The notes beneath the pieces were generated by a model, which was not told where the DNA came from, made no database searches, and was given only the letters and a program-made list of their open reading frames with translations. Of a stretch of DNA of 64,000 nt, positions 3,407 through 50,650 are shown piece after piece (within the stretch, counting starts at the first letter, position 1; each line of letters begins with the position of its first letter). Source of the stretch: Dysidea avara. Taxonomy: Eukaryota; Porifera; Demospongiae; Dictyoceratida; Dysideidae. The DNA is taken from the NCBI RefSeq assembly GCF_963678975.1, contig NC_089274.1:7594143-7658142 (forward strand), in the 5' to 3' direction. Both the position numbers and the translations under genes were made by a program.

Positions 3407-3447
3407 GATACTCTAATAGAGCAGTCATTACTCGCATAGAACAGTCA
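3407..3447 (+). repeat. CTCTAATAGAG motif plus a partial second copy
   Basis: gatactctaatagagcagtc at 3407-3426 is a full consensus match. A partial copy (gcatagaacagtcac) follows. The rest of 3300-3966 is AT-rich with no other recognisable feature. Confidence 0.65.
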
Positions 3448-5162: not shown

Positions 5163-6257
5163 CTACTCCGGTATTTTATTCCATTTCACATTATTCCACT
5201 TCAGTAACTGAAATAACTTCTTATTGAATGGCTCATAAATAGGTATTAATTTCTTCCTGTCAGATACAGTCAACTTTCTGAATGACGGCTCATCCTCCAG
5301 TCTCCCTCCATAGTTGTGTAGAACTGATGTCACTTGTTGCATCTTGTGATCATCAAGAGGTCGCAGACCAACAAATTCCATCACTTCAGCCAAACTCTTC
5401 ACTGAGTTTTCACGGAACTGTTCTGTGTTTAAGATGATTATGTTTTCAGCTGGAAAGTTACACAACCAATGGTGAAGGTGTACATAATATAAACCAGCAT
5501 AGACCATATTTCTATCTGAAGGGTTATGACGTAAACAAGCTATCTCATTAGGATGGTTGCTAAGGTAATCCATGCCTCTTGAAGCAGCTACTTTCAAGTA
5601 AAACCTTTCAATTTGTTTATCTACTTCATCTGAAATATGTGATTGATTATTATAGTTTTTATGACTTGGTGACCGCACACTCAACCTGAAGCTAGACTGG
5701 AACCTCTCTAGAGGATCCCTAAGTAACACAACCACCTTAGTTGTCCTGCCACAATTACTGTATAATCTTAATGGTACAGGACAGTACAGTAAGTAGCCTA
5801 CTGTTGATTCACCACTCAATTTATCAGTAGGAAATTCTGACACATAATCTTTCCAAGATATCCTATAGTAGTGGTTGTTGAAGTAAAATGTTTCTCCAGA
5901 TGCAGCTCCATTATTCAACCGTATTCCACCAAAATCAGGGTGTTGGGATAAGTACTGATACATTGCTGTGGTCCCTCCTTTACGAGCTCCTATGATAAAC
6001 ACGTGAGGACAATTGTCATGTAATGGAGGAGCGTTCAACTGTGTAGAGTTCAACATCACTGATGATGGAGGACAACTGCTGTAATTGAAATCTAACTCAC
6101 TGCCAATACGAGTAAGCCTTGGGACTGGCTGCATTGATGAAACTACTGTGTAGACATAGATATGCTGTTTATTGGAGGCGAGTATCATTGTGATGATGAA
6201 AACAGCAATGATCAGCAGTTGGACATTTCTTTGTTGTAGTGTTTTAGGTATCCTCAT
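5163..6257 (-). CDS. Golgi carbohydrate sulfotransferase, 364 aa, intronless
   Basis: A complete single-exon gene for a type II membrane protein. Residues 1-12 are a short cytoplasmic tail and about 13-28 a hydrophobic signal anchor, followed by a stem and a lumenal catalytic domain. The 5'-phosphosulfate loop is GARKGGTTAMYQYL at about 90-103. The 3'-phosphate-binding segment is VVVLLRDPLERFQSSF at about 175-190. Both are diagnostic of PAPS-dependent Sulfotransfer_1 enzymes. Expected role is transfer of sulfate from PAPS to a glycan, most like the heparan/chondroitin sulfotransferase group; the acceptor cannot be told from sequence. Several N-glycosylation sequons (NYS, NST, NQS) fit a lumenal enzyme. 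The start follows in-frame stops and leads directly into the anchor. No introns were seen, so an ancestral retrocopy is possible. Confidence 0.9.
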   Translation of the reverse strand: MRIPKTLQQRNVQLLIIAVFIITMILASNKQHIYVYTVVSSMQPVPRLTRIGSELDFNYSSCPPSSVMLNSTQLNAPPLHDNCPHVFIIGARKGGTTAMYQYLSQHPDFGGIRLNNGAASGETFYFNNHYYRISWKDYVSEFPTDKLSGESTVGYLLYCPVPLRLYSNCGRTTKVVVLLRDPLERFQSSFRLSVRSPSHKNYNNQSHISDEVDKQIERFYLKVAASRGMDYLSNHPNEIACLRHNPSDRNMVYAGLYYVHLHHWLCNFPAENIIILNTEQFRENSVKSLAEVMEFVGLRPLDDHKMQQVTSVLHNYGGRLEDEPSFRKLTVSDRKKLIPIYEPFNKKLFQLLKWNNVKWNKIPE

Positions 6258-14825: not shown

Positions 14826-15553
14826 CAGTGGCGGAGGAAGTAGTTGATATGAGGGGGGGGGGGGGGGGGGGCTGACCAGAGGCGGAAATGGACTGAGGCA
14901 CTACATTGTCTCTGACTTCGTAAGGTGAGACCAAAAAAAAAAAAAGGTCACAGCCAGCTAGCTACCCACTTCACCAGCTACGCATTTATAGCTAATAAAC
15001 CATATAAAAATCCTTATAGCTCACTATAGCTACACACTGCTCTAAGGCCACTCCAAATAAATTCTCTGTTTCCCGTCCACCGCCCGCATCTGGTTACTGT
15101 CAGTTCTAAATATTCCATTATTCCGTATTCTTCTATTATTTTCCGGTTATTCTTGCATACTGACAGGCTTAGTAAAGCTCACGTGTCAGCAGTGCTATCA
15201 AGTCAGCACAAACTTCACGTTTGTGTTATTTTGCAATTAAAAAGGAAGAAACAAGCTTAAGCATGCTTTTATGCAGCTTTTTATATGGTTGTGCCAGGCA
15301 AATATTGGGAAAAGCTGCCATTCTTATAATGAAGTAATGGAAATGGACCGCCCGCCCGCATGCAAATATGCTTGAGTCCAGGACGGGAAACAGAGAATTT
15401 GTTTGGAATGGCCTAATACTGAAACTGCTTTATTAGAGTGACTGCTCTATTAGAGTATCTCGATCTTTATCACGGTTTTTAGCCCCACTCCAAGAAGGAT
15501 AATTTCGGCGTGATATCATTTTGAGGGGGGGGCTGAACTTTTCCGCCGCCTAT
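14826..15553. mobile_element. MITE family A, copy 2, with a nested insertion
   Basis: Begins cagtggcggaggaagtag, passes a run of 18 G, and ends ttttccgccgcctatg. Relative to copy 1 it is reversed: the aaaaaaggtcacagccagct block comes first and the CTCTAATAGAG motifs (15425-15466) last. Removing the inserted 368 bp leaves an element of about 360 bp. Confidence 0.7.
15046..15413. mobile_element. PIF/Harbinger-like MITE, 368 bp
   Basis: The left end GGCCACTCCAAATAAATTCT and the right end (read inward) GGCCATTCCAAACAAATTCT continue as ctgtttcccgtcc, giving 33-bp inverted repeats with few mismatches. It is flanked by TAA on both sides (15043-15045 and 15414-15416). The GGCC terminus and 3-bp TWA duplication are typical of Harbinger-derived MITEs. 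Confidence 0.8.
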
Positions 15554-16508: not shown

Positions 16509-17700
16509 ATGGAGCAGCTGACTCGCCTACAGACTTCTCGTAGAGCGTATCGTTCGCACGTCACGCGAATCCTCAACAAGGTAGATGAAACCCTCGACAA
16601 GGAGATCGATGAACTAGCCCTTACCTACCTTACCACTGCCGTCTCGCAACTAGAAAAGAAGCATGAACAGATTACCAAGCTGGATGAACAGATCGCAGAA
16701 CTGATTCAGGATCCAGGCGAGCTAGAAGAGGCAATCATGGACTCTGAGGAGGGGCAAGATCTTATTATTGAGAACATCAATAAGCTGAAGAAGCAAGTGG
16801 AGCTTTTGTCAAAGCAGCCTCGTCCTGCTACACCAAGAGACAATTGAAGATGACAATGATGCAACCCAGGAATCACACCAGGACATTGTGAGTAGCCCAA
16901 TTTACAAGTATGCATGACAGCAATGTTGTTAATGAATCTTCAGTCACAAGTGTTGATAACCAATCAGTTTCAAATGTTGATATTGAATTACCAAAAGTGT
17001 GTGGTAGCCCTCCAACCAGTAACATCTCTTCAACACTTACATTTTCAATGCTCAATTCAACCCCAGTTTCTGTTTCATCAATTTCTTACCCATCAGTGAG
17101 CTATGTCCACAGTTTGGGGCCTCCTCCATTAATTCCAAGAAGTACTGAAGCAGTTAGCCCCCATCCACTAGCTCCCTTATATTCTATACCGTCAGTTTTA
17201 CCGACATTGTCTCATCTCAACCTGGACACTAGTCAACCCTCCAGCAGACTCCCCATAGTGAGTACTAGAAGTATTGAACCCCTGATGATAACACCTATTA
17301 CTACCGCACCAGAAGTTCCCAATCATACTCCACAGTTTGCTGCAAGCAGGTTACCTAAGTTAACTCTACCGATGTTTTCTGGACACCCCTTAGAATGGCT
17401 AACTTTTTGGGATTCCTTCCGAGCTGCCATCCACTCCAATCCCAATCTAAGTGGTGTGCAGAAATTCAATTATTTGAAGGCCCAACTGCAAGGGGATGCA
17501 GCTAAGGTTATTGCAGGGTTTCCTCTCAGTGATCACAATTACCTACATGCAGTGGCTATTCTACAAGAACGTTTTGGCCAAACTGAACAGTTAATTGATA
17601 TACACATGCAAGCTCTGTTGGAACTGCCGAGGCCCACAAACTCACTGCACAGTTTACGCAACTTTCACGACACTGTGGAAAGTCATACTCGTGGCTTATC
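16509..17700 (+). pseudogene. gag: BEL/Pao retrotransposon gag, frameshifted and truncated
   Basis: Two open pieces. The first, 16509-16847 (112 codons), is a charged coiled-coil N-terminus. The second, 16910-17719 in another phase, is a Ser/Thr/Pro-rich linker followed by the conserved gag block LPKLTLPMFSGHPLEWLTFW...YLKAQLQGDA...L...FG. That block is the DUF1759-type region found in BEL/Pao gag. The phase change near 16850 breaks the frame. The element stops abruptly at 17700, before any zinc knuckle, protease or reverse transcriptase. The last six codons of the open frame belong to the unrelated block beginning at 17701. It is an old, dead retroelement copy. Confidence 0.85.
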
Positions 17701-18296
17701 TTATAAAGTATATCGCTAAAAATTTGAAACTTGCTTTGTGGAATTAACAAACAATGGCTGTGTTAGAAATGTGGATTACTGTATAAATTTAAATTTGCCA
17801 TTGGAAAATTTTAAAGTTAGCTGATTTATTGAGTTGGTCTTTTTCATTACAAGCGTATGCCTGCTAAGGTAGCTTGACATAAATTACACTTCTAGTTGTA
17901 ACCAGTGTATGGTATTAAAAATTCATCAGCAAATTCTTGCAAACTTCATGCAACAATTTGGCTGTAGCAAAATGGTGTAACTTTGTCAGTGCATGTGTGA
18001 ACCATGGTATAAGAAACTGTCTGAAAGTTTATCTACCATGAGCTATGTGTACACAGTATATGTGTCTGTATTATATACACTGTTAACAACATATTAAGGG
18101 GCAATGTGCCAGTTGTATCAAGGTTTCAGTTCTATTAGTAATACATGTTTCACAAATAACAAGCCTAAATGCAAATGATGGTGTTTTTTTTATTATTAAT
18201 TACCAATCAACAAGATACATAAGTGCAAGTGAAAGTTATGACTTATGTATATATCAGTTAACAAGTTAGTTGGTATCACAGAACCCTTAATTTGCT
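17701..18296 (+). promoter_or_regulatory. Upstream region of the beta-helix gene
   Basis: 17701-17866 is duplicated at 2344-2507. The remaining ~430 bp to the start codon is AT-rich with no TATA box or initiator I would defend. Promoter elements probably lie here, but this is inferred from position only. Confidence 0.35.
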
Positions 18297-21200
18297 ATGG
18301 AGTGGTTTAAATTATTTGTGTTGATGACAATTCTGAACACATCTAAATCAAATGATCAATTCTTTGTTCTACCTGATGATTCAGCTGATATCAGTTGTCC
18401 ATCTCAACCTTGTGCTACACTCAGTCAATACTTACTGGATAATAATGGTACATTACCTGTTGTGTCTAATGTTGAATATCACTTCTTACCTGGAGAACAT
18501 GTGATCCCTGCAAACTTAGAGCTATTAAATATAAAAAATTTTACATTTGTTGGAATCATGAGTGATAATTTACCACTAGTGGTATTGGTTAGTCCTTCAC
18601 GTCATGCATTACTCTATATTAAAAATTCATCTGATGTAACAATTTCAAATTTGAAGTTTAAAAATCATAATCAACTACAACAATACCATGGAAGTTTGGC
18701 TAATATTTTGCTCTTCAAGTGTTCTTTTTGCAAGATAGAAAATGTCAGTTTTATAGAGTGTGGAATTGCATTACAAAATTTACTGGGAGAGTCTTATCTA
18801 CACAATATACGCATAACCAATCCAGCCAATGCAGCATCAAAACACACCGTACATGAATATGGAATTGTATTGAAGTACATTGATCAGCCAGGCATCATTC
18901 ATGATTACAACAACAGCAGCATAGAAATTAACAATCTTGTCATTACTGGCAAAGGTAATGCAGGAATAATAGTATTCATAGATCAATCCAAATATGGCAT
19001 AAATATTTCAATCTTTTACTCTTTGTTTTATGAAATGGATCAACCAATTATGCACATTTCAGCTGTATCGGTAGCACAGATACAAGTCAAAAACTGTACA
19101 TTTGTGGCCAGTCGACATATGGACACACATATTATACATCCAATGATTAAGATTGTTATGTCACCTGTGAAAGAAACTATAAAGTTTTTGAATTGTAATT
19201 TTCATCACAACTATGACTGGAAATCTCTATTATCAATATTTATTGTAAATTTATTTCCAATTCAAATTTGTGCAAATATAAGTAACATAAGCCTTCAAGG
19301 TTGTAACTTTACGGAAATTGGAAATCCAATTCTGTATCTTGACAAGACTAGGGAATCACCATGCACAGTGAATTTGGCAATTACTGGACCCTTTGTCATA
19401 TCAGAAGCTACTGCCTTTGACACTGAAGATAATTCCTTATTAAATATTTCTGATGCAACTGTCAGCATAAGTGGACCAATCACTTTTTCACACAACTATG
19501 CATATAGTATTATTTCATTTCAATCTTCAGATGTGTTGCTCAGTGAAGAAATAGTATTCATATCAAATGAGGGAAATGCAATATTTGTTGTAAAATCTGA
19601 ACCTGCTTATGTAAAGGTACTGGAATATTCCAATATAATATTCACTACAAATGTATATTATAACAATCTTATACTTCTAGAACCTGATGAGAGAAACAAT
19701 TTTCCTTTTCCATTTTGTATTCTTCAATATGTAACATTGAGAAACAAGTCATTTGTTACACCAACACATTACACCATTACTGCCATGAACAATCACCTTG
19801 AAGAGTCTCTTATTCCACTGTCAGACCAAAAATGTGAATTTAATTTGCATTACTTCACTACTCACTGTCAATGGATACCCTCATCAGTGTTCTACGGTTA
19901 TAACCCTGGAGTAATAAACCAGCAAATAATACAAACTGATCAACATCAACTAAGTGACCACACTACCATATGTCACTGTTCACATAACATAACCAACTGT
20001 AGTGTTGATGTACTAGGACCTGTGTATCCTGGACAAGTGTTACAAGTAGAATTGTGTGTAACAACTAACAATGAACACTCTATTTTGTATGTAGAAACAC
20101 ACAATACACATTTACCAAATTCATCTTGTAAAGTTGCTCACCAAACTGAATTGGTTAGCACTATCACTAACTATTCAAAAATGTTCAACTTTACTATAAT
20201 TGTTACAGAAGCTCAACAAACATGTGAAATATTTTTAACAGCATCACCTTGTCTGTACAGTATTTATGAAGCATTTTATGTAGAAATACTACCTTGCCCA
20301 GTTGGGTTTACATTACAAAATGGAGTTTGTGATTGTGATCCTTATCTTAGTAACAGTAACATTCACATTGACACATGTTACATTGATCAATCAACTATCA
20401 CACGTCCTGCTAACACTTGGATAACTGCTCATTATTACTCTAATAACACTAAATATTTAATATCACATAATTGTCCAATGGATTACTGTCTACCACACTC
20501 ATCACATCTTAATTTACTTAATCCTGATTTACAGTGTCAGTTTAACAGGACTGGTATCTTGTGTTCACAGTGTCAACATTCACTTAGTATGGTATTTGGA
20601 TCATCAAGGTGTATACACTGTACTAATATACATATTCTCATCACTATCATAGTTATACTTGCTGGAATTGTTTTGGTAGTCTTACTTTATCTTCTCAACC
20701 TCACAGTCACTAATGGAACTATCAATGGAATAATATTTTATGCTAACATCATTAGCATTAATGACTCTGTATTCCTAGTAAATGATAATGTGTTTAAACC
20801 ACTCAGAGTGTTTATTTCTTTTGCCAACTTGGATTTGGGTATAGAGACATGTTTCTACAATGGAATGGATGGATATGCTAAGGCGTTCCTACAGTTGTTC
20901 TTCCCTTTCTATCTCATAGTCATTGCTGTTTCAATTATTGTAACAAGTCGTTATTCTTCTAGAATACTACGATGGACATATACTAGATCTCTTCCTGTAC
21001 TAGCTACATTGTTTCTGCTATCCTACACTAGTGTTCTCAGAGCTGTATTAACAGTCTTGTTCTCTTATTCTACCATAACTCAACTACCAAGTGGGGATCA
21101 ACAGTTAGTGTGGTCTATTGATGCCAGTGTTCCATTGTTTGGCTTAAAGTTTACCATACTGTTCATCACATGTCTTGTCTTATTCTTACTACTAATTCCT

Positions 21201-21800
21201 TTCAACATCATTTTTTTGTTTACAAGATACTTATCACAGTTCAGGATAATAAATCAGTTTAAACCTTTACTGGATGCATTTCAAGGACCATATAAAGATA
21301 AATACTATTATTGGGTTGGTGTTCATCTTATTTTAAGGAGTATGTGTTTTGCTTTATGTGGATTTCAAGTAAAACCAAGATTGGTTTTATCGGCCATACT
21401 GCTTATAATATTTAGCATTTTAAATGGCTGTATTTACCCAAACAGGAAGAAACCTGTAAACATTCAAGAACTCTTACTACTACTAAACGTCACTATAATG
21501 TATGCAGTATCCTATCAGGGTAGTGGTAGTGTTTTCTCTACTGTCACAAATGTCATGATCAGTTTGGCTTTTATTCAGTTTTGTACAATTGTGTTCTATC
21601 ATTTCCTCACCTACACATGTCACTGTAATGTTGTGACTACGTTACAAACTGTGAAAGAGAAGTTGATGGAATACAGGAGGAATGATGACCATATTGATCT
21701 TGGATTGCTTAATATTCCTGAGCGTACACACAATTACAATGAATACCGTGATGGACTTGTTAGTGATGATTTTGAAAGGAACAACTTGCCTAACACATAG
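18297..21800 (+). CDS. Large beta-helix / multi-pass membrane protein, 1167 aa
   Basis: An intact single-exon frame from ATG to TAG. Residues 1-19 form a signal peptide. Residues about 25-500 show repeated short hydrophobic strands with regularly placed Asn (NITI, VTISNL, KIENVSF), as in right-handed parallel beta-helix ectodomains, and carry many N-glycosylation sequons. Residues about 520-775 are cysteine-rich, with a CPVGFTLQNGVCDCD segment and a final GILCSQCQ...VFGSSRCIHC module. From about 780 to 1105 there are eight or nine hydrophobic segments, followed by a short cytoplasmic tail. The protein should be a plasma-membrane receptor- or channel-like molecule. The membrane part loosely recalls TRP/Flc-type domains, but I cannot name the family. 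A decayed paralogue lies at 2508-3290, so the family duplicates locally. Confidence 0.85.
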   Translation: MEWFKLFVLMTILNTSKSNDQFFVLPDDSADISCPSQPCATLSQYLLDNNGTLPVVSNVEYHFLPGEHVIPANLELLNIKNFTFVGIMSDNLPLVVLVSPSRHALLYIKNSSDVTISNLKFKNHNQLQQYHGSLANILLFKCSFCKIENVSFIECGIALQNLLGESYLHNIRITNPANAASKHTVHEYGIVLKYIDQPGIIHDYNNSSIEINNLVITGKGNAGIIVFIDQSKYGINISIFYSLFYEMDQPIMHISAVSVAQIQVKNCTFVASRHMDTHIIHPMIKIVMSPVKETIKFLNCNFHHNYDWKSLLSIFIVNLFPIQICANISNISLQGCNFTEIGNPILYLDKTRESPCTVNLAITGPFVISEATAFDTEDNSLLNISDATVSISGPITFSHNYAYSIISFQSSDVLLSEEIVFISNEGNAIFVVKSEPAYVKVLEYSNIIFTTNVYYNNLILLEPDERNNFPFPFCILQYVTLRNKSFVTPTHYTITAMNNHLEESLIPLSDQKCEFNLHYFTTHCQWIPSSVFYGYNPGVINQQIIQTDQHQLSDHTTICHCSHNITNCSVDVLGPVYPGQVLQVELCVTTNNEHSILYVETHNTHLPNSSCKVAHQTELVSTITNYSKMFNFTIIVTEAQQTCEIFLTASPCLYSIYEAFYVEILPCPVGFTLQNGVCDCDPYLSNSNIHIDTCYIDQSTITRPANTWITAHYYSNNTKYLISHNCPMDYCLPHSSHLNLLNPDLQCQFNRTGILCSQCQHSLSMVFGSSRCIHCTNIHILITIIVILAGIVLVVLLYLLNLTVTNGTINGIIFYANIISINDSVFLVNDNVFKPLRVFISFANLDLGIETCFYNGMDGYAKAFLQLFFPFYLIVIAVSIIVTSRYSSRILRWTYTRSLPVLATLFLLSYTSVLRAVLTVLFSYSTITQLPSGDQQLVWSIDASVPLFGLKFTILFITCLVLFLLLIPFNIIFLFTRYLSQFRIINQFKPLLDAFQGPYKDKYYYWVGVHLILRSMCFALCGFQVKPRLVLSAILLIIFSILNGCIYPNRKKPVNIQELLLLLNVTIMYAVSYQGSGSVFSTVTNVMISLAFIQFCTIVFYHFLTYTCHCNVVTTLQTVKEKLMEYRRNDDHIDLGLLNIPERTHNYNEYRDGLVSDDFERNNLPNT

Positions 21801-35439: not shown

Positions 35440-35749
35440 CAGGGACGGATCCAGGGGCGGTTCCATGGAACCCCCTCTTTTGAAAGAGCCTCTCTTACTC
35501 GAGATACTCTAATAGAGCAGTCAAATCGAGATACTCTAATAGAGCAGTCACAGTAGTCTTTTGAGCAGCAGTGTAGCAAGCTATGTATCTAGTTATAAAT
35601 AAGGAAATATAGTTGGTGAGGGCATCTATGGTGAGGGGCAGCTATTGTCAGCAGGTGATGACCTTTTTTTTTGGTCTTCAACTTACAGCTAGGCTGAAGT
35701 TGCAATTCCAAAGTGGAACCCCCTTTTTAAAAGTCTGGATCCGCCCCTG
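35440..35749. mobile_element. MITE family A, copy 3 (310 bp)
   Basis: Ends are CAGGGACGGATCCAGGGGCG and GGATCCGCCCCTG. It is flanked by tactt on both sides (35435-35439 and 35750-35754), and the SINE sequence it interrupts reads straight across the gap. It carries two full tandem CTCTAATAGAG motifs at 35503-35549. Confidence 0.85.
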
Positions 35750-43667: not shown

Positions 43668-43694
43668 GATCGAAGTACTCTAATAGAGCAGTCA
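43668..43694 (+). repeat. CTCTAATAGAG motif beside a MITE A fragment
   Basis: gatcgaagtactctaatagagcagtca. The preceding gaaggatccactttcaa (43651) resembles the end of MITE family A, so this is probably a remnant of that family. Confidence 0.6.
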
Positions 43695-44110: not shown

Positions 44111-44493
44111 TTTTCATATGGGTAAGGTATCTAATCTACCTGTACAATAATTTTTAAATTTAGGCTGCACAATATATTATGGGATTTCAGGGGTGTAGCT
44201 ACAATGTAGGCAGGTGAGGCAGTTGCCTCACCAAAATATTGTTGATTGAACTGACACAGGCACATTATTAAAATAATTTCAAATGTGATATATAAAGAGT
44301 AAATTTAAAAATGATCATCATTGCAACTTTTGTGGCTGAATGTTGGATAAGGTACAGTACAGGTGAATTGCAAGTACCAATTTTTCCTAATTTACAATGA
44401 AGCGATGCAAGTACTTCTGAATTAAATGTGCATGTGTGTATTAAAGTGATGCTGTACATGCATTAGTACAATATTTATGGTTCATTCATTTAG

Positions 44494-45578
44494 TGTCTTC
44501 CACTCGTTTGTGGTCAGCAAAAGGAGTTACAATTTTAGCAGCTTTTATTTTATTAGCACTGGTGGTTGGATTTATGCTGGGCAAGCATGAATGCAAAAGC
44601 GAGCTAGATGAGCAGAGTAAAACTCTTAAAAATGAGCAGAGTAAAATATGTAAAAGTGAGCTCAATGAACAGAGTAGAAGATGCAAAAGTGAGCTAGATA
44701 AACAGAATAAAACTCTTAAAGATGAACAGAGTAGATGGTGTAAAAGCAAGATAGATGAACAGAGTGAAACACTTAAAGATGAACAAAGTAGAATATGTAA
44801 AAGTGAGTTAGATGAGCAGAGTAAAACTCTTAAAGATGAGCAGAGTAAAATGTGTAAAAGTGAACTAGATGAACAGAGTAGAGGATGTAAAAGCAAGCTA
44901 GATGAGCAGAGTAAAACTCTTAAAGATGAGCAGAGTAAAATGTGTAAAAGTGAACTAGATGAACAGAGTAGAGGATGTAAAAGCAAGCTAGATGAGCAGA
45001 GTAAAACTCTTAAAGATGAGCAGAGTAAAATGTGTAAAAGTGAACTAGATGAACAGAGTAGAGGATGTAAAAGCAAGCTAGATGAGCAGAGTAAAACTCT
45101 TAAAGATGAGCAGAGTAGAATATGTAAAAGCGAGCTGGATGAGCAGAGTAGAAGGTGTAAAAGTGAGTTAGACGAGCAGAGTAGAAGATGTAAAAGTGAA
45201 CTAGATGATCAGAGTAGAAGATGCAAAGGCGAGCTAAAGGAAATCAATAGAGCTCAGGAAGTTATAACTGCCCAAGTGAAATTAATTATGAACTGGAAGA
45301 AATCAACAAAAGAGTTTATAAGAGCAACAAATGAATATATTGAAGATGTGGTACAATATTGTGAATTAAAAGAAAAGGGAGGATGGTTTGATTCATTAAG
45401 TGATGCAGAAATGTATACTATGAATAGGATAAAAGAAAAATTTGGAGATGTTAACATTCCTGCAAAAGACGTTAGGGTTATCTTGGTTGACATAACAGAT
45501 CGGTTAAAACAAACTTTCGACAGAACTCTATCAGAACTTGAAGATGCTTTGCATGACTTGCCATGGAAAATACAGTGA
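44494..45578 (+). CDS. Single-pass membrane protein with Cys-bearing hendecad coiled coil
   Basis: An open frame of about 360 codons preceded by ttcattcatttag, a good 3' splice site, and lacking an in-frame ATG nearby. It is therefore probably the main exon of a gene whose start lies in an upstream exon. Residues about 12-30 form a membrane anchor (GVTILAAFILLALVVGFMLG). About residues 33-250 are repeats of the types CKSELDEQSRG and KTLKDEQSKM. Spacing is 11+11+8, a 30-residue period, and 90-bp DNA units near 44821, 44911, 45001 and 45091 are almost identical. Fifteen cysteines sit at equivalent repeat positions. A non-repetitive C-terminal domain (residues about 255-361) is helical and contains WFDSLSDAEMYTMNRIKEKF. 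A long rod oligomerised by disulfides is a reasonable inference. I do not recognise the family. Confidence 0.75.
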
Positions 45579-45785
45579 ATGAAGCAGCAGCAAGAAAATT
45601 TAAGTGATCAAGAAATACAAAAAATTTTGATGAACATTAATAAAGATTGGAAAGAAGAATTCGGCCAAGCACAAAAAGCAACCACTAGAAACCCATGGAA
45701 GGAAATTTTACGTCATGTGTCTGACTTTCTACAAAGCACATTTGTATATACATTTAATACAGTGTGGTCTATCTTAAAAACCTAG
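45579..45785 (+). CDS. In-frame continuation after a TGA, 68 codons
   Basis: Directly after the TGA ending the coiled-coil frame, the same phase resumes with ATG and runs 68 codons to TAG. It encodes a polar helical segment (MKQQQENLSDQEIQKILMNI) and an amphipathic end (FLQSTFVYTFNTVWSILKT). It looks like the original C-terminus cut off by a nonsense change, or reached by readthrough. Confidence 0.45.
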   Translation: MKQQQENLSDQEIQKILMNINKDWKEEFGQAQKATTRNPWKEILRHVSDFLQSTFVYTFNTVWSILKT

Positions 45786-45899
45786 TGCATAGTCTAATGA
45801 TAGTAGTATTGCTACAATGTCGCTCAAAGTTTTGCATCACCATTGTACATGTCCTTGTTCTATATCATAAACCAATTGAATTACAATTATATATTTTAC

Positions 45900-45927
45900 A
45901 CCACACACACACACACACACACACACA
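45900..45927. repeat. (CA)n run
   Basis: Preceded by acaattatatattttacacc, the same block that precedes the longer CA run at 47736. Both may mark the same repeat end. Confidence 0.8.
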
Positions 45928-46069
45928 TGCGCGACTTGGACTTGAAAGGAAGCCATCCAATGGATTATGCTTGTCCTGAAGAATCTCACAGCCAATCATT
46001 GACAGCGGGATGAGCAGGTAGTTATACACTTATGTCTAGACATTCTTAAAAACCATTGGCAAGTATCAC

Positions 46070-46247
46070 AATGGAAGGGTTTAGATTGAGAGTGTGGTCC
46101 ACCCAGTAAATTCTCCAGCCCTTCAGTAATTAATCATTTGCATAGACATCTGTCTTGAGTTTGATGGTACCATGAGTCACTAATGGAGAAGTTCTCAAAA
46201 TCCTGTTTAACTTTATTACTCCATCTTAACTTCACACCATAGGCAGG
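46070..46247 (-). pseudogene. Endonuclease/RT LINE C-terminal piece (distal half)
   Basis: The minus strand encodes YGVKLRWSNKVKQDFENF and ISDSWYHQTQDRCLCK. This resembles the RW.D.V..DL......WY..AQDR tail of animal endonuclease-reverse-transcriptase LINEs. It joins in sense to 47464-47690 once the intervening hAT element is removed. Confidence 0.7.
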
Positions 46248-47455
46248 CAGACTTGGGGTCAAATACATGAGTGTTTGTATTTAATTGCAATTAAATATAT
46301 ACAAATTTTGAGTAATTGTATTTGTAGTTTAGAAACTGTAATTAAATACTTTCCTAATGTATTTAAATACGTACAACTACTTCAAATACTTTTACCAAAA
46401 TAGGATCGTAAATTTAGCTGAATCTTTGATCATAAGTGATGTCATTTGATATCAGGAGTCAGAGCCCCCAACCAAGAAAATGCCATTTTCAATGATTTGA
46501 TAGCTATTAGATGAGACAGTATATACTAGTGTCCATTTGATTCTACTTGGGGTACTTAGAGATAATGAGTTACTCTCTAGAATTCCTATGGATATAATTG
46601 CACGAAAATAACAAGGAGAAAACATCCTGACCACCTGGCAGACTCCTGTAAGCGTTCGAGTGTAAATCGGATGGTTGCAGGTTCGAGGCTACCTAGGTCC
46701 AGTCATGGATTTTTTCTCCTTTCTCCAATTTTCAAACACACTTTAAGTAGCTAAAGTCTTTGAGCAGGCTGTAGGACCAGGTGTCCTGCAGACCTTCAGC
46801 ACTTGTGCTGTAAAGCATTATTAAATAAATAAAAATTCTAATACTATTGCTTCCAATGACATCACTTCAGTTCAATGGTCGAAGAAGATTTACAGTCACC
46901 ATGCTTACCACAAGAGAAGGATCCACTTATGTTTTAGAAACTAAATGTTCCCTGTTGGCTAAATGAGCAACCCAAATTTTGTATGTGCCAACTTTGTATG
47001 CACCCACTTTTCAGTATTTTGCACAAAATAATATTTTAATCCGAGAGATGCAGGCTAACAGATAAAAGATTGATGTTGATTTATATAGTAGACGCAATCA
47101 ATAGCACACAATACACATACACTCCCTGTACATACATAGAGCTAACATGTTGCCTTACTGCTTAATAGCAGTAGTTATATATAGTAACAACGATATTATG
47201 TTTATAGATTAGAAGACAACATGTGTAAAGTGTAGATAGACAATTAAGTGGTTGAGTCACTAAGTATTTGAAATTATATTTAAATACTTTAGAAAGTATT
47301 TGTATTTAAATACTTTAGAAAGTATTTGTATTTAAATACTTTAGAAAGTATTTGTATTTAAATACTGTCCTGACAAAATATTTGCAATCATATTTGTATT
47401 TGGAAAATGTCTATTTGTAATTAAATACTATACACTGTATATTACCCCAAGTCTG
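46248..47455. mobile_element. hAT-type element, 1208 bp including a nested SINE
   Basis: Ends CAGACTTGGGGT and ACCCCAAGTCTG. The flanks taggcagg (46240-46247) and tgggcagg (47456-47463) are an 8-bp duplication with one mismatch. Subterminal regions are full of gtatttaaatac/gtatttgtatttaaatac blocks, a composition I associate with a widespread animal hAT MITE type. 47278-47365 contains a 28-bp block (tatttaaatactttagaaag...) repeated in tandem. Confidence 0.85.
46529..46845 (+). mobile_element. tRNA-like SINE nested in the hAT element
   Basis: gtccatttgattctacttgg, then tcctgaccacctggcagact, a B-box-like ggttcgaggctacc, a T-rich stretch, and a tail ending attaaataaataaaaatt. It matches the copies at 34985-35436. 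Confidence 0.8.
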
Positions 47456-47463
47456 TGGGCAGG

Positions 47464-47690
47464 GCATGTCTGAGGCAGCTATCCAAATAAAATCCTTTTT
47501 GGTATGTGATTCTCAGACATGCATGCAACATGACCCAACCACCTGTGCTTAACCAAGCTTAATAGAATATTAATGCCAACAGACTCTCGCATACCAAAAC
47601 GTTCAGCCAACTGACTAGTAGTGATGTGCTGCACCCATTGCACAGTCCTTCCAATGCCCATAATACATATAATACACCGACGATGAAAAA
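47464..47690 (-). pseudogene. Endonuclease/RT LINE C-terminal piece (proximal half)
   Basis: The minus strand encodes VQWVQHITTSQLAERFGM, VKHRWLGHVACMSENHIPKR and ILFGWLPQTCP. This is the typical ....WLGHV.RM....IPK..L.G block of animal endonuclease-reverse-transcriptase ORFs. It is the upstream partner of 46070-46247. Confidence 0.8.
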
Positions 47691-47735
47691 GTCTCTAACT
47701 TTCTGTCCGATTAAATTGCAATTATATATTTTACA

Positions 47736-47803
<68 letters not shown>
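47736..47803. repeat. (CA)n microsatellite
   Basis: An uninterrupted CA run following ttaaattgcaattatatatt. Confidence 0.95.
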
Positions 47804-47808
<5 letters not shown>

Positions 47809-48289
47809 AGCTGCTGTATACATGCACCCCTACCTATTAGTAGGGCAGATTTTAGAAAATTTGGGGACAGGCTGGACAAAAGTACCAAACTTTTTTGCTA
47901 GTTTATGAGTATCCATTAAACATTTTTTGTTAGGATCTAAATTCAATTAATGTCCTGAGTCAATTAATTGCTGGTGACTGTACTATTAGAATTGTTTTAA
48001 TGCATTTTCACCACCATTGTATTTAAATAATGTTAAAACAACTGTGTCATCATGTTGTAAACGAATAAATGTGTACAAATACTATATTCTGTGTATACAA
48101 GAGAATAACAGTCAACTTTTTCATTATTTTACAAAAAATTAAAGTGATGAACTGAATGTTAATCATGGTTCTCAAGTAAACCCATTACATTTGCAAAGAT
48201 CAGTACATGACCAAGTGGTTTCTTACAACTACATATAGTGCCACACCCCTTTTCACTTTTACAACTGTACTTCACCAGCTCCATGCATG
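47804..48289. other. Intergenic, no feature seen
   Basis: AT-rich sequence without open frames or repeats that I can support. Confidence 0.45.
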
Positions 48290-50650
48290 CAATGTAAGCT
48301 ATTGGCTGGGTATACAGTCCAAACAGGGTTCCACTCTTTTTGCATTTATCACCATTTCCATCCCCTTGACTCTGGAGTAGGCTACTAGTAGTGCAAACAC
48401 TAGCTTAATGAGTGGCTCTTTTTGCATGCTGCAATACGACATCTGATGTTGGTAGAATATTTTCCATTGCTTTGTTTTCACAGCAAAACTACTCCATCCT
48501 GGCAATAGAACTGTATATCTTTCCAGCATCTCAAAGTGTATAGATTCCATATCAAAGTTTGTAAATGGCTTCAATGCTACCTGGGAAATGAAAATGCTGT
48601 TGTAACTTCTGGAAAACTATTCCAAGCTTTCCAGGCCCTCCTAGACCATGTGCACCAGGCAGGTCCTCAGCCCTTTCTTCATGATCAATGCATCAGCCAT
48701 GTGAACAACAACTCTTGTATCTGCTTCCTCATGGTAGCATAGCTTGTGTAGTACTATTTGTCAACACAACTGAGCCATCAGTAATGAAAGCTTCTTTGCT
48801 ATCACGCCTATCAGGATACTTGAATGACATGTGACAGATAGAATCTTAAACAGTTCTTATTTGTTTCATCACACAAGAACTCCTTTCAATTAGTTAGTAC
48901 TTTTTTCTTTCCTGCCACTTTCTGTCTAATAGCCTGATCTCAAAGACTATTGTGTGTGTCCCACACTAGATCAAGTCATGAACAGTTTTCCAGTTGTCTG
49001 ACAAGATGAGGTATAAAGACTAAATCTGCATATTCATCAAATGTAGCTATATTTGCTGCACCATCAACAACAGTTACATCAAGAACACAATGAGGCTCTG
49101 GTTGGTCATATTCTGGTAATAAGTTTAGTAGATCAATCAGCCTCAGTTTACCATTATCAGATGAGGCTGGATTTTAATTCATGCTTGAAGAATGTTGGCA
49201 TATCACACCTTCCTTGTTTTTCACTGCAATGTTAAGTCATAAAAACAATGACACATCATTTTTCAGGTTTTCAACATTCGTGCATTGTTTTGATTTTGTC
49301 TTCTGTTTTGAGCTTTGAATAAGCGAGATATTCTTTGGATCATACTAGTACAATCAACCAATACAGATTTGTAGTAACCATCGAATTACTCTTTCCCCAA
49401 ACTACAAACTGTGTCCAACTGACCTGCCTATCACAATTCCCATGTCCATGTTGAACAGTTTTCAAATTGATCCTTAAGAATGAAGTTTCCATGTCTTCAT
49501 ATGCTTCCACTAAAGAAATAACTTGTGATTTAAAAGTAGTTTGAGTTGAATATCCTTCATCATGACAAAAATTGTTTTTCAAAAGCTGCTATTCAAATTT
49601 TCAAATTCTTCTATTAGTTGTGCTTGTTCTGGTTCAGCAATAGCCAGCCATTACCTGATAGCAACAGGGCTCTGCATGAGTCCAGTAGCACCACAAGACC
49701 CTTTTGTTTTTGATAAGTGGATATTGGTGAGAAACTTTTTTTTTTGTTTTCTGAATAACCCAATGACTATTTTCATAAAATTCATTGTTCATTGATGTAG
49801 ACAAATTTTCCATGTCACGAATGTGCACAAACACCCAGTGATAGTGAGACAAAAACCCATGGCACGGTTTGTTTTAGAGAATCATGGTAAATGGAAAATT
49901 CCCAGTGTGCTCTGACAAAAATTACATCTATTAGTTCCAAGTTGAATACACTGTCCCAATATACAGACATTGGACTGGTTTTCCTAATTTCCACTCTTGT
50001 TTGAAATCAATTAAATGAATCATTTGTTTGTGAGAAAGCCTTATCTTGTAGTATCGCTAATGCTAATACACTAATTTGACAAGCATTTCTCATCTTTTTT
50101 CGATACGCTACATTGAGAAAACTCTTTACAGTAGGAATGGCTTTGTGGAGTACTATTGGAGAGTACCTTAATGGGTCTGGATGGGTATCTGCACTGACAC
50201 AAGCTGGTGCGGCATCAACAAATACTATGTGAAGGCCACCCATCATATCCACATATTTGTCTTCATCATGTATATCTGGCCATTTCCATTGCACTAACTT
50301 GGCTAAAGCAAGTAGTTAAGCGTCAAAAGCTATAGCGGAAATCTGACCAGGGTTTGGAATTGTATAGCTTGAGTTTGTACTGTGATTCCATGTTTTACCA
50401 TTGCTCCAGGTGCTGTATACTCATAGAACAAAGCCATTAACTGAATAATGCTTGTGCAGGTACATGGCTTCAACTTTATATATGCATGATATGCAGCCCG
50501 TGATATCTGTTCTTCTTTATCAAATTCATCTTTGTTTATAGCTTCCCTGGCATCATGTTCCAGCCAATTGTGTTCAGTCTGCACTGCCTCATTGAAATGT
50601 TTATGAGGCAATAAATGTGGATTAGCTAGTTGGATTATGGGAAACTACAA
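48290..50650 (-). pseudogene. Dead, near full-length copy of an uncharacterised repetitive gene
   Basis: Reading the minus strand across many frameshifts gives, in order: AVQTEHNWLEHDAREAINKD, HGITVQTQAIQF, LVQWKWPDIHDEDKYV, MMGGLHI, FWYLILELEILV, VHIRDMENLS, ENSHWVIQKTKKK, AEPEQAQLIEEFENL, HDEGYSTQTTFKSQV, PEPHCVLDVTVVDGAAN, IATFDEYADLVFIPHLVRQL, HEEADTRVVVHMADAL, LERYTVLLP and ENKAMENILPTSDVVLQHAK. I recall the same string of motifs (QWKWPD, GGLH, FDEYA..VF.PH, HEEADTR) from many hypothetical proteins of sponges, cnidarians and other invertebrates, where it behaves as a repetitive, probably transposon-related family without known function. This copy carries numerous stops and phase changes. 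Confidence 0.75.

Follow-up and report, generated by a model that had tools for sequence, protein, structure and literature searches.

What does the exon-like frame at positions 44494-45785 of this stretch of sponge DNA encode, and what does the TGA that interrupts it in phase mean for its product? The stretch, here called the window, comprises 64,000 nt of Dysidea avara (assembly GCF_963678975.1, contig NC_089274.1, designated C3 in our analysis, positions 7,594,143-7,658,142 of the forward strand). Direct translation of the frame gives, in order, a transmembrane segment, a rod, a helical domain, the TGA, 68 further codons and a TAG (Table 1). We think it likely that the frame forms the final coding exon of a coiled-coil protein anchored in the membrane, that the protein belongs to a large and recently expanding family, and that the copy in the window has been cut by a recent nonsense variant; a role as a tether or spacer would fit its layout.

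Table 1. Features of the exon-like frame, in positions of the window.
Feature	Positions	Strand	Basis
Putative splice acceptor AG; exon starts at codon position 2 (phase 1)	44492..44493	+	Sequence
Short N-terminal linker VSSTRLWSAK, with two basic residues	44494..44522	+	Translation
Transmembrane anchor GVTILAAFILLALVVGFML	44523..44579	+	Mean Kyte-Doolittle 2.74
Cys-studded coiled-coil rod, 211 aa, 15 Cys	44592..45224	+	Translation, repeat and periodicity analysis
Conserved helical domain, first part (W ... YCxLK ... M ... L)	45252..45575	+	Shared with in-genome relatives
In-frame TGA	45576..45578	+	Translation; one codon before a conserved Met; sense codon in 11 aligned relatives
Domain second part (M..QQ ... 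W+.EF..AQ) and hydrophobic C-terminal segment; 68 sense codons and TAG (45783-45785)	45579..45785	+	Translation, alignment

Translation bears out two statements of the sequence-only reading, namely that the protein begins with a membrane anchor and that the frame continues in the same phase for 68 codons directly behind the TGA. The open frame as a whole spans 44445-45578. Its first in-frame ATG, at 44574, lies within the membrane segment, and an upstream exon is therefore required. Comparison of the upstream frames of the window and its relatives identified no such exon, and the matches found there resemble dispersed repeats. The relative on contig C1 (L004) likewise has an acceptor-like AG, in this phase, before its exon, while the relatives on contig C11 have a CAG in another phase. 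A 240-aa antisense frame at 44486-45208 was taken as a by-product of the repeats.

The window at large has a CpG observed/expected ratio of 0.40 and a TG+CA ratio of 1.30, an indication of a methylated genome in which transitions are frequent. Elsewhere in it we note an 18-bp motif, TGACTGCTCTATTAGAGT, with 24 sites on both strands at up to three mismatches against 0.11 expected; six pairs of sites lie 17-35 bp apart, examples are found at 3410-3427, 15439-15456, 35506-35550 and 43677-43694, and the motif is probably part of an interspersed repeat. A tandem array of 5.8 copies of a ~130-bp unit occupies 534-1285. Three other open frames were recorded: a single-exon sulfotransferase-like frame on the reverse strand at 5163-6257 (Sulfotransfer_1, E 1.5e-13), a DUF1759 frame on the forward strand at 16892-17716 (E 1.6e-30), which is presumably a remnant of the gag type from a retroelement, and a single forward-strand frame of 1169 aa at 18291-21800, which matches no Pfam family at E values up to 0.2 and has hydrophobic stretches nearer its C-terminal end.

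Is the C-terminal domain novel, as had been claimed? Searches of Pfam and of PDB sequences returned no credible family and no credible match for it. Chance or helix composition would seem to account both for the best PDB matches (a phage head protein, E 0.0078, and ApoA-IV, E 0.00099) and for the Pfam matches that stayed under the cut-off (TelK_muzzle, CLP1_P and others). In L037, HALZ is above its cut-off and bZIP_1 and KASH_CCD are below theirs; all three were attributed to that protein's heptad rod. Viral contigs gave 27 pattern matches, none of them a relative. A single-sequence structure model of the domain plus tail is all helical (mean pLDDT 62.3, pTM 0.48) and is too weak for claims about fold. 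No Pfam family describes the domain; it is not unique, however, for the same genome holds at least 22 relatives.

These relatives were found by searching the whole assembly (550.8 Mb in 108 contigs, the longest of at least 65 Mb). The domain of the window as query returned four further places, three on contig C8 at 19.76-19.80 Mb and one on C1 at 15.92 Mb, at 35-47% identity and E values of 2.5e-19 to 7.6e-11. With the C1 relative as query, seven weak matches were added, all on C11 (E 0.026-0.92). We regard these as real relatives because a profile of five C11 frames aligns with a profile of the four C1/C8 frames at an hhalign probability of 97% (E 9e-11), in an alignment that spans the TGA position, and because the layout is common to both groups. 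A C11 relative as query then gave 29 matches, which group by position into at least 18 gene places between 24.05 and 24.68 Mb. Together with the window, the family has at least 23 places.

The C11 cluster thus packs at least 18 relatives into ~630 kb; near-identical segmental copies occur among them on both strands, and many frames are broken. One recent pair of segmental duplicates is 99.6% identical over 3.3 kb and another 97.6% over 3.2 kb. A single open frame from the membrane segment to the C-terminus is present at 8 of the 18 places. The other 10 lack one; six have in-frame stops inside the match and four are split between frames, and introns could explain the frame splits in some copies. 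Substitution ratios could be computed for two pairs: between L002 and L003, dN/dS is saturated in the domain and 0.33 in the tail, and between L025 and L029 it is 1.54, on very few differences. In a tree of 11 rows built from the domain plus tail, the window groups with the C1/C8 relatives (support 100/100), and its end branch is the longest of this five-row clade (1.12 versus 0.27-0.82).

What do the members share? The domain landmarks W, YCxLK, M and L recur among the relatives, as does the motif MxxxQ that in the window follows the TGA. Membrane segment, coiled coil and domain can be read in one frame in the window and in six relatives (L004, L025, L035, L037, L038 and L040), and these six have a hydrophobic C-terminus as in the window. 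By sequence, then, the layout of the readable relatives is one membrane segment, a rod of alpha-helical type, the conserved domain and, at the C-terminus, a hydrophobic segment. No rod was found within 6 kb upstream of the C8 relatives L002, L003 and L005. The window copy departs from the layout of the readable relatives where the TGA interrupts its C-terminal tail. On this evidence the gene in the window seems to belong to a large family of membrane rod proteins that is changing fast.

What is odd in the window copy, set beside the readable relatives, is its rod. Measured from membrane segment to domain, the window rod has 225 residues, 15 cysteines and 3.76 residues per turn, whereas the rods of the six relatives have 44-153 residues and no cysteine or one. 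In L004, L035, L037 and L038 the hydrophobic periodicity of the rod has its peak at 3.48-3.53 residues per turn, in L025 at 3.57 and in L040 at 4.16, values to be read with the fact that the peaks of L004, L025 and L040 stay within the 95th percentile of their shuffles, which that of L035 barely passes. Among the seven rods seen, only that of the window is studded with cysteines and pentadecad-like. The C1 relative, L004, contains within L004:1258-2073 three 63-bp units of three heptads each that are identical letter for letter, a further instance of a rod that has expanded recently; duplication within the gene can thus lengthen the rods of this family.

How is the window rod built? It is assembled from fourteen 11-residue and seven 8-residue modules, plus a last cysteine that opens the next segment. 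One cysteine heads each complete 11-residue unit (14/14) and the fifteenth stands at the end. The 30-residue repeat of 11+11+8 described by the sequence-only reading is therefore correct as to the cysteines, which are in register throughout, and too regular as to the order, which is strict only in the middle of the rod. The near identity that the same reading had reported for the 90-bp units stands, the three regular units matching pairwise at 90/90, 88/90 and 88/90 positions. Its hendecad assignment does not. The hydrophobic periodicity of the rod peaks at 95.5-96 degrees, equal to 3.75-3.77 residues per turn and above the 99th percentile of 300 shuffles, although an exact 30-residue repeat permits only 12-degree harmonics, so that the sharpness of the peak is partly built in. 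Power at the hendecad angle of 98.18 degrees is 0.50-0.57, compared with 4.7-5.0 at 95.5-96 degrees, and there is also little at the heptad angle. Single 11-residue modules are present, but the rod as a whole lies nearer the pentadecad value (15/4 = 3.75) than the hendecad value (11/3 = 3.67). One published account describes pentadecads as 15/4 = 3.75 and right-handed to the degree that heptads are left-handed (PMC4786415). The 30-residue unit of the window, over 8 turns, gives the same 3.75 residues per turn. It differs from known pentadecads in that its core would consist of Cys, Leu, Met, Ile and Gln within a very polar sequence.

Differences between the rod units are mostly synonymous. The pN/pS ratio is 0.20 for the 11-mers and 0.39 for the 8-mers, against 0.58 and 1.05 when the same units are read in the +1 frame; these are pairwise, non-independent counts and carry no significance test. 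Because the differences are mostly synonymous, we suggest that the rod was constrained as a protein while its units diverged. The same pattern, with cysteine kept in all complete 11-residue units, would be consistent with the disulfide-linked rod that had been envisaged.

Does the stretch behind the TGA belong to the protein? An open frame of 68 codons has a chance probability of 0.0062-0.0072. The description of this tail as conserved-looking is upheld by an alignment of 12 rows, the window and 11 relatives, from which most of the broken copies and the near-identical ones were left out. At the TGA column the 11 relatives have Glu in six cases, Lys in three, Ile in one and Leu in one; none has a stop, and none has Cys or Trp. 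Met follows directly in 12/12 rows, and Gln occupies the fourth position behind the stop in 12/12. When the opening 32 residues of the tail are set ungapped and in register beside the four C1/C8 relatives, they score 142, compared with -68 (SD 37) for shuffles, of which 0/50,000 scored as high, and in a scan of 37 register offsets only offset 0 is positive. The whole tail aligns with the C1/C8 profile from residue 1 (hhalign E 7.1e-5, probability 63%). A local HMM test gave a moderate result, with 50 shuffles reaching 4.2 bits (2000 made, 1869 scored), and the last third of the tail has no confident alignment. In the domain, mean identity is 39.8% between the window and the four relatives and 38.7% from relative to relative; in the tail core the corresponding means are 25.8% and 24.4% (relative to relative over five pairs, leaving out the close pair L002/L003). 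By this measure the tail shows no decay, which would be expected if the stop is recent, is not real or is read through. Since the tail is in register and as conserved as the tails of the relatives, the stop is probably recent.

Four readings of the TGA had been offered from the letters: readthrough, recoding, a null allele and an assembly error. A null or truncating nonsense variant is favoured, because 10/18 C11 relatives lack one open frame and because there is no sign of recoding or readthrough; the window copy is then probably an ordinary broken or shortened copy. Some observations weigh against this explanation. The long end branch of the window would also fit relaxed constraint, the local HMM test separates the tail from its shuffles only moderately, and the Met after the TGA column, invariant in the alignment, is replaced in three broken copies outside it, by Thr in L036 and L041 and by Lys in L047. 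The main rival is a base error in the assembly consensus, the real gene being intact. An open and conserved tail is what this would predict, the exon shows no interruption other than the TGA, and repeats lie nearby. The change, however, is of a single base in unique sequence ~350 bp downstream of those repeats, an improbable error in an assembly of this size and contiguity (550.8 Mb in 108 contigs), and stops occur in other copies too. A base error is possible, and we hold it to be unlikely. Programmed readthrough or recoding, yielding a short form and a long form with the C-terminal segment, would account for a conserved in-phase tail directly behind the stop. Yet among the paralogues it is the extension that is conserved and not the stop, which occurs at this column in 0/11 aligned relatives. 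The placed stops of broken copies lie elsewhere and are of other kinds, TAG in the coil of L026 and TAA in the domain of L024, upstream of the TGA site of the window. TGA itself is the terminator of L004 and of the C11 copies L025-L029. Decoding as selenocysteine or Trp is disfavoured by the aligned Glu, Lys, Ile and Leu. Rfam includes models for SECIS elements; no Rfam model matched the window at its gathering threshold, and no SECIS is among six weak matches (E up to 10) in 45400-49400. The RNA after the TGA folds worse than its shuffles (z +1.22; 184/200 at least as stable). TGA-CTA is a known leaky stop context, and the context here is TGA-ATG. We consider readthrough very unlikely. Nor does splicing offer a way around the stop: the donor pattern scored, GT[AG]AG, has no site in 45251-45785, and splicing out the TGA would remove conserved residues as well.

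If the stop is real, is the gene long dead, or is its short form at work? Confidence in these two ideas overlaps with that in the preferred explanation, since a recently dead copy and a working short form are both nonsense variants. That the whole gene is a long-dead copy whose rod repeats are junk expansion seems quite unlikely to us. The broken state of 10/18 C11 relatives, the missing upstream exon in the upstream-frame comparison and the longest end branch in the clade would all agree with it, and if death was recent the idea merges with our own. Against a long-dead copy stand the low pN/pS of the rod relative to its +1 frame, as far as non-independent pairwise counts show it, the cysteines kept in 14/14 units, and a domain and tail conserved as in the relatives. 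The selection of tail loss, leaving a functional rod protein that makes no C-terminal contact, is about equally doubtful, and it too overlaps with the preferred explanation. It draws on a frame that is intact up to the TGA and on the protein-level constraint of the rod. The stop, on the other hand, does not coincide with the edge of a domain: it falls one codon before a conserved motif and, in the low-confidence single-sequence model, at residue 119 within a helix predicted at 81-123. Nor does the tail show longer-term decay. A recent nonsense variant, segregating or fixed, remains the reading we prefer, and it would leave the window copy null or encoding a truncated protein.

What might the intact protein do? 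We propose that it is a tether or spacer, in which the membrane segment would hold one end and the hydrophobic C-terminus would make a second contact with a membrane or a protein. The mean H of the C-terminal segment is 0.85-0.95 in the six relatives and 0.85 in the tail of the window; the amphipathic moment of this segment is clearly above shuffles in L025 and L004 only. The length of the rod would be altered by tandem duplication within the gene, and a protein truncated at the TGA would lack both the second contact and part of the domain. By the positive-inside rule, basic residues mark the cytosolic side of a membrane segment. In the relatives such residues lie before the membrane segment; in the window they lie before it and also behind it (GKHECK), so that the topology signal is weak and the rod would only tentatively be placed outside the cytosol. 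There, the cysteines at core positions could link one chain to its neighbours.

Tethers of the BST2/tetherin type offer a possible analogy of layout, with an N-terminal membrane anchor, a coiled coil bearing cysteines and a proposed second membrane contact at the C-terminus. The C-terminus in the window differs in being a hydrophobic protein segment preceded by a helical domain, and the likeness drawn here is one of layout. A far bolder picture, to which we give very little credence, is of a lineage-specific and highly variable family of outward-facing rods in which individuals would differ in copy number, rod length and C-terminal contact, the rod of the window would have gone over from left-handed heptads to a right-handed pentadecad with a ladder of cysteines, and the TGA, read through now and then, would set the ratio of tethering to non-tethering forms.

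In our preferred explanation of a recent nonsense variant the TGA is probably ordinary, and what is unusual is the change of periodicity and the ladder of cysteines in one member of the family. The comparison of rods suggests that the periodicity of a coiled coil, and possibly its handedness, may change by tandem duplication while the other parts of the protein are conserved. The wider setting, a clustered family that has no Pfam model, occupies at least 23 places, contains copies up to 99.6% identical and includes many that are broken, is the pattern of a fast-changing family.
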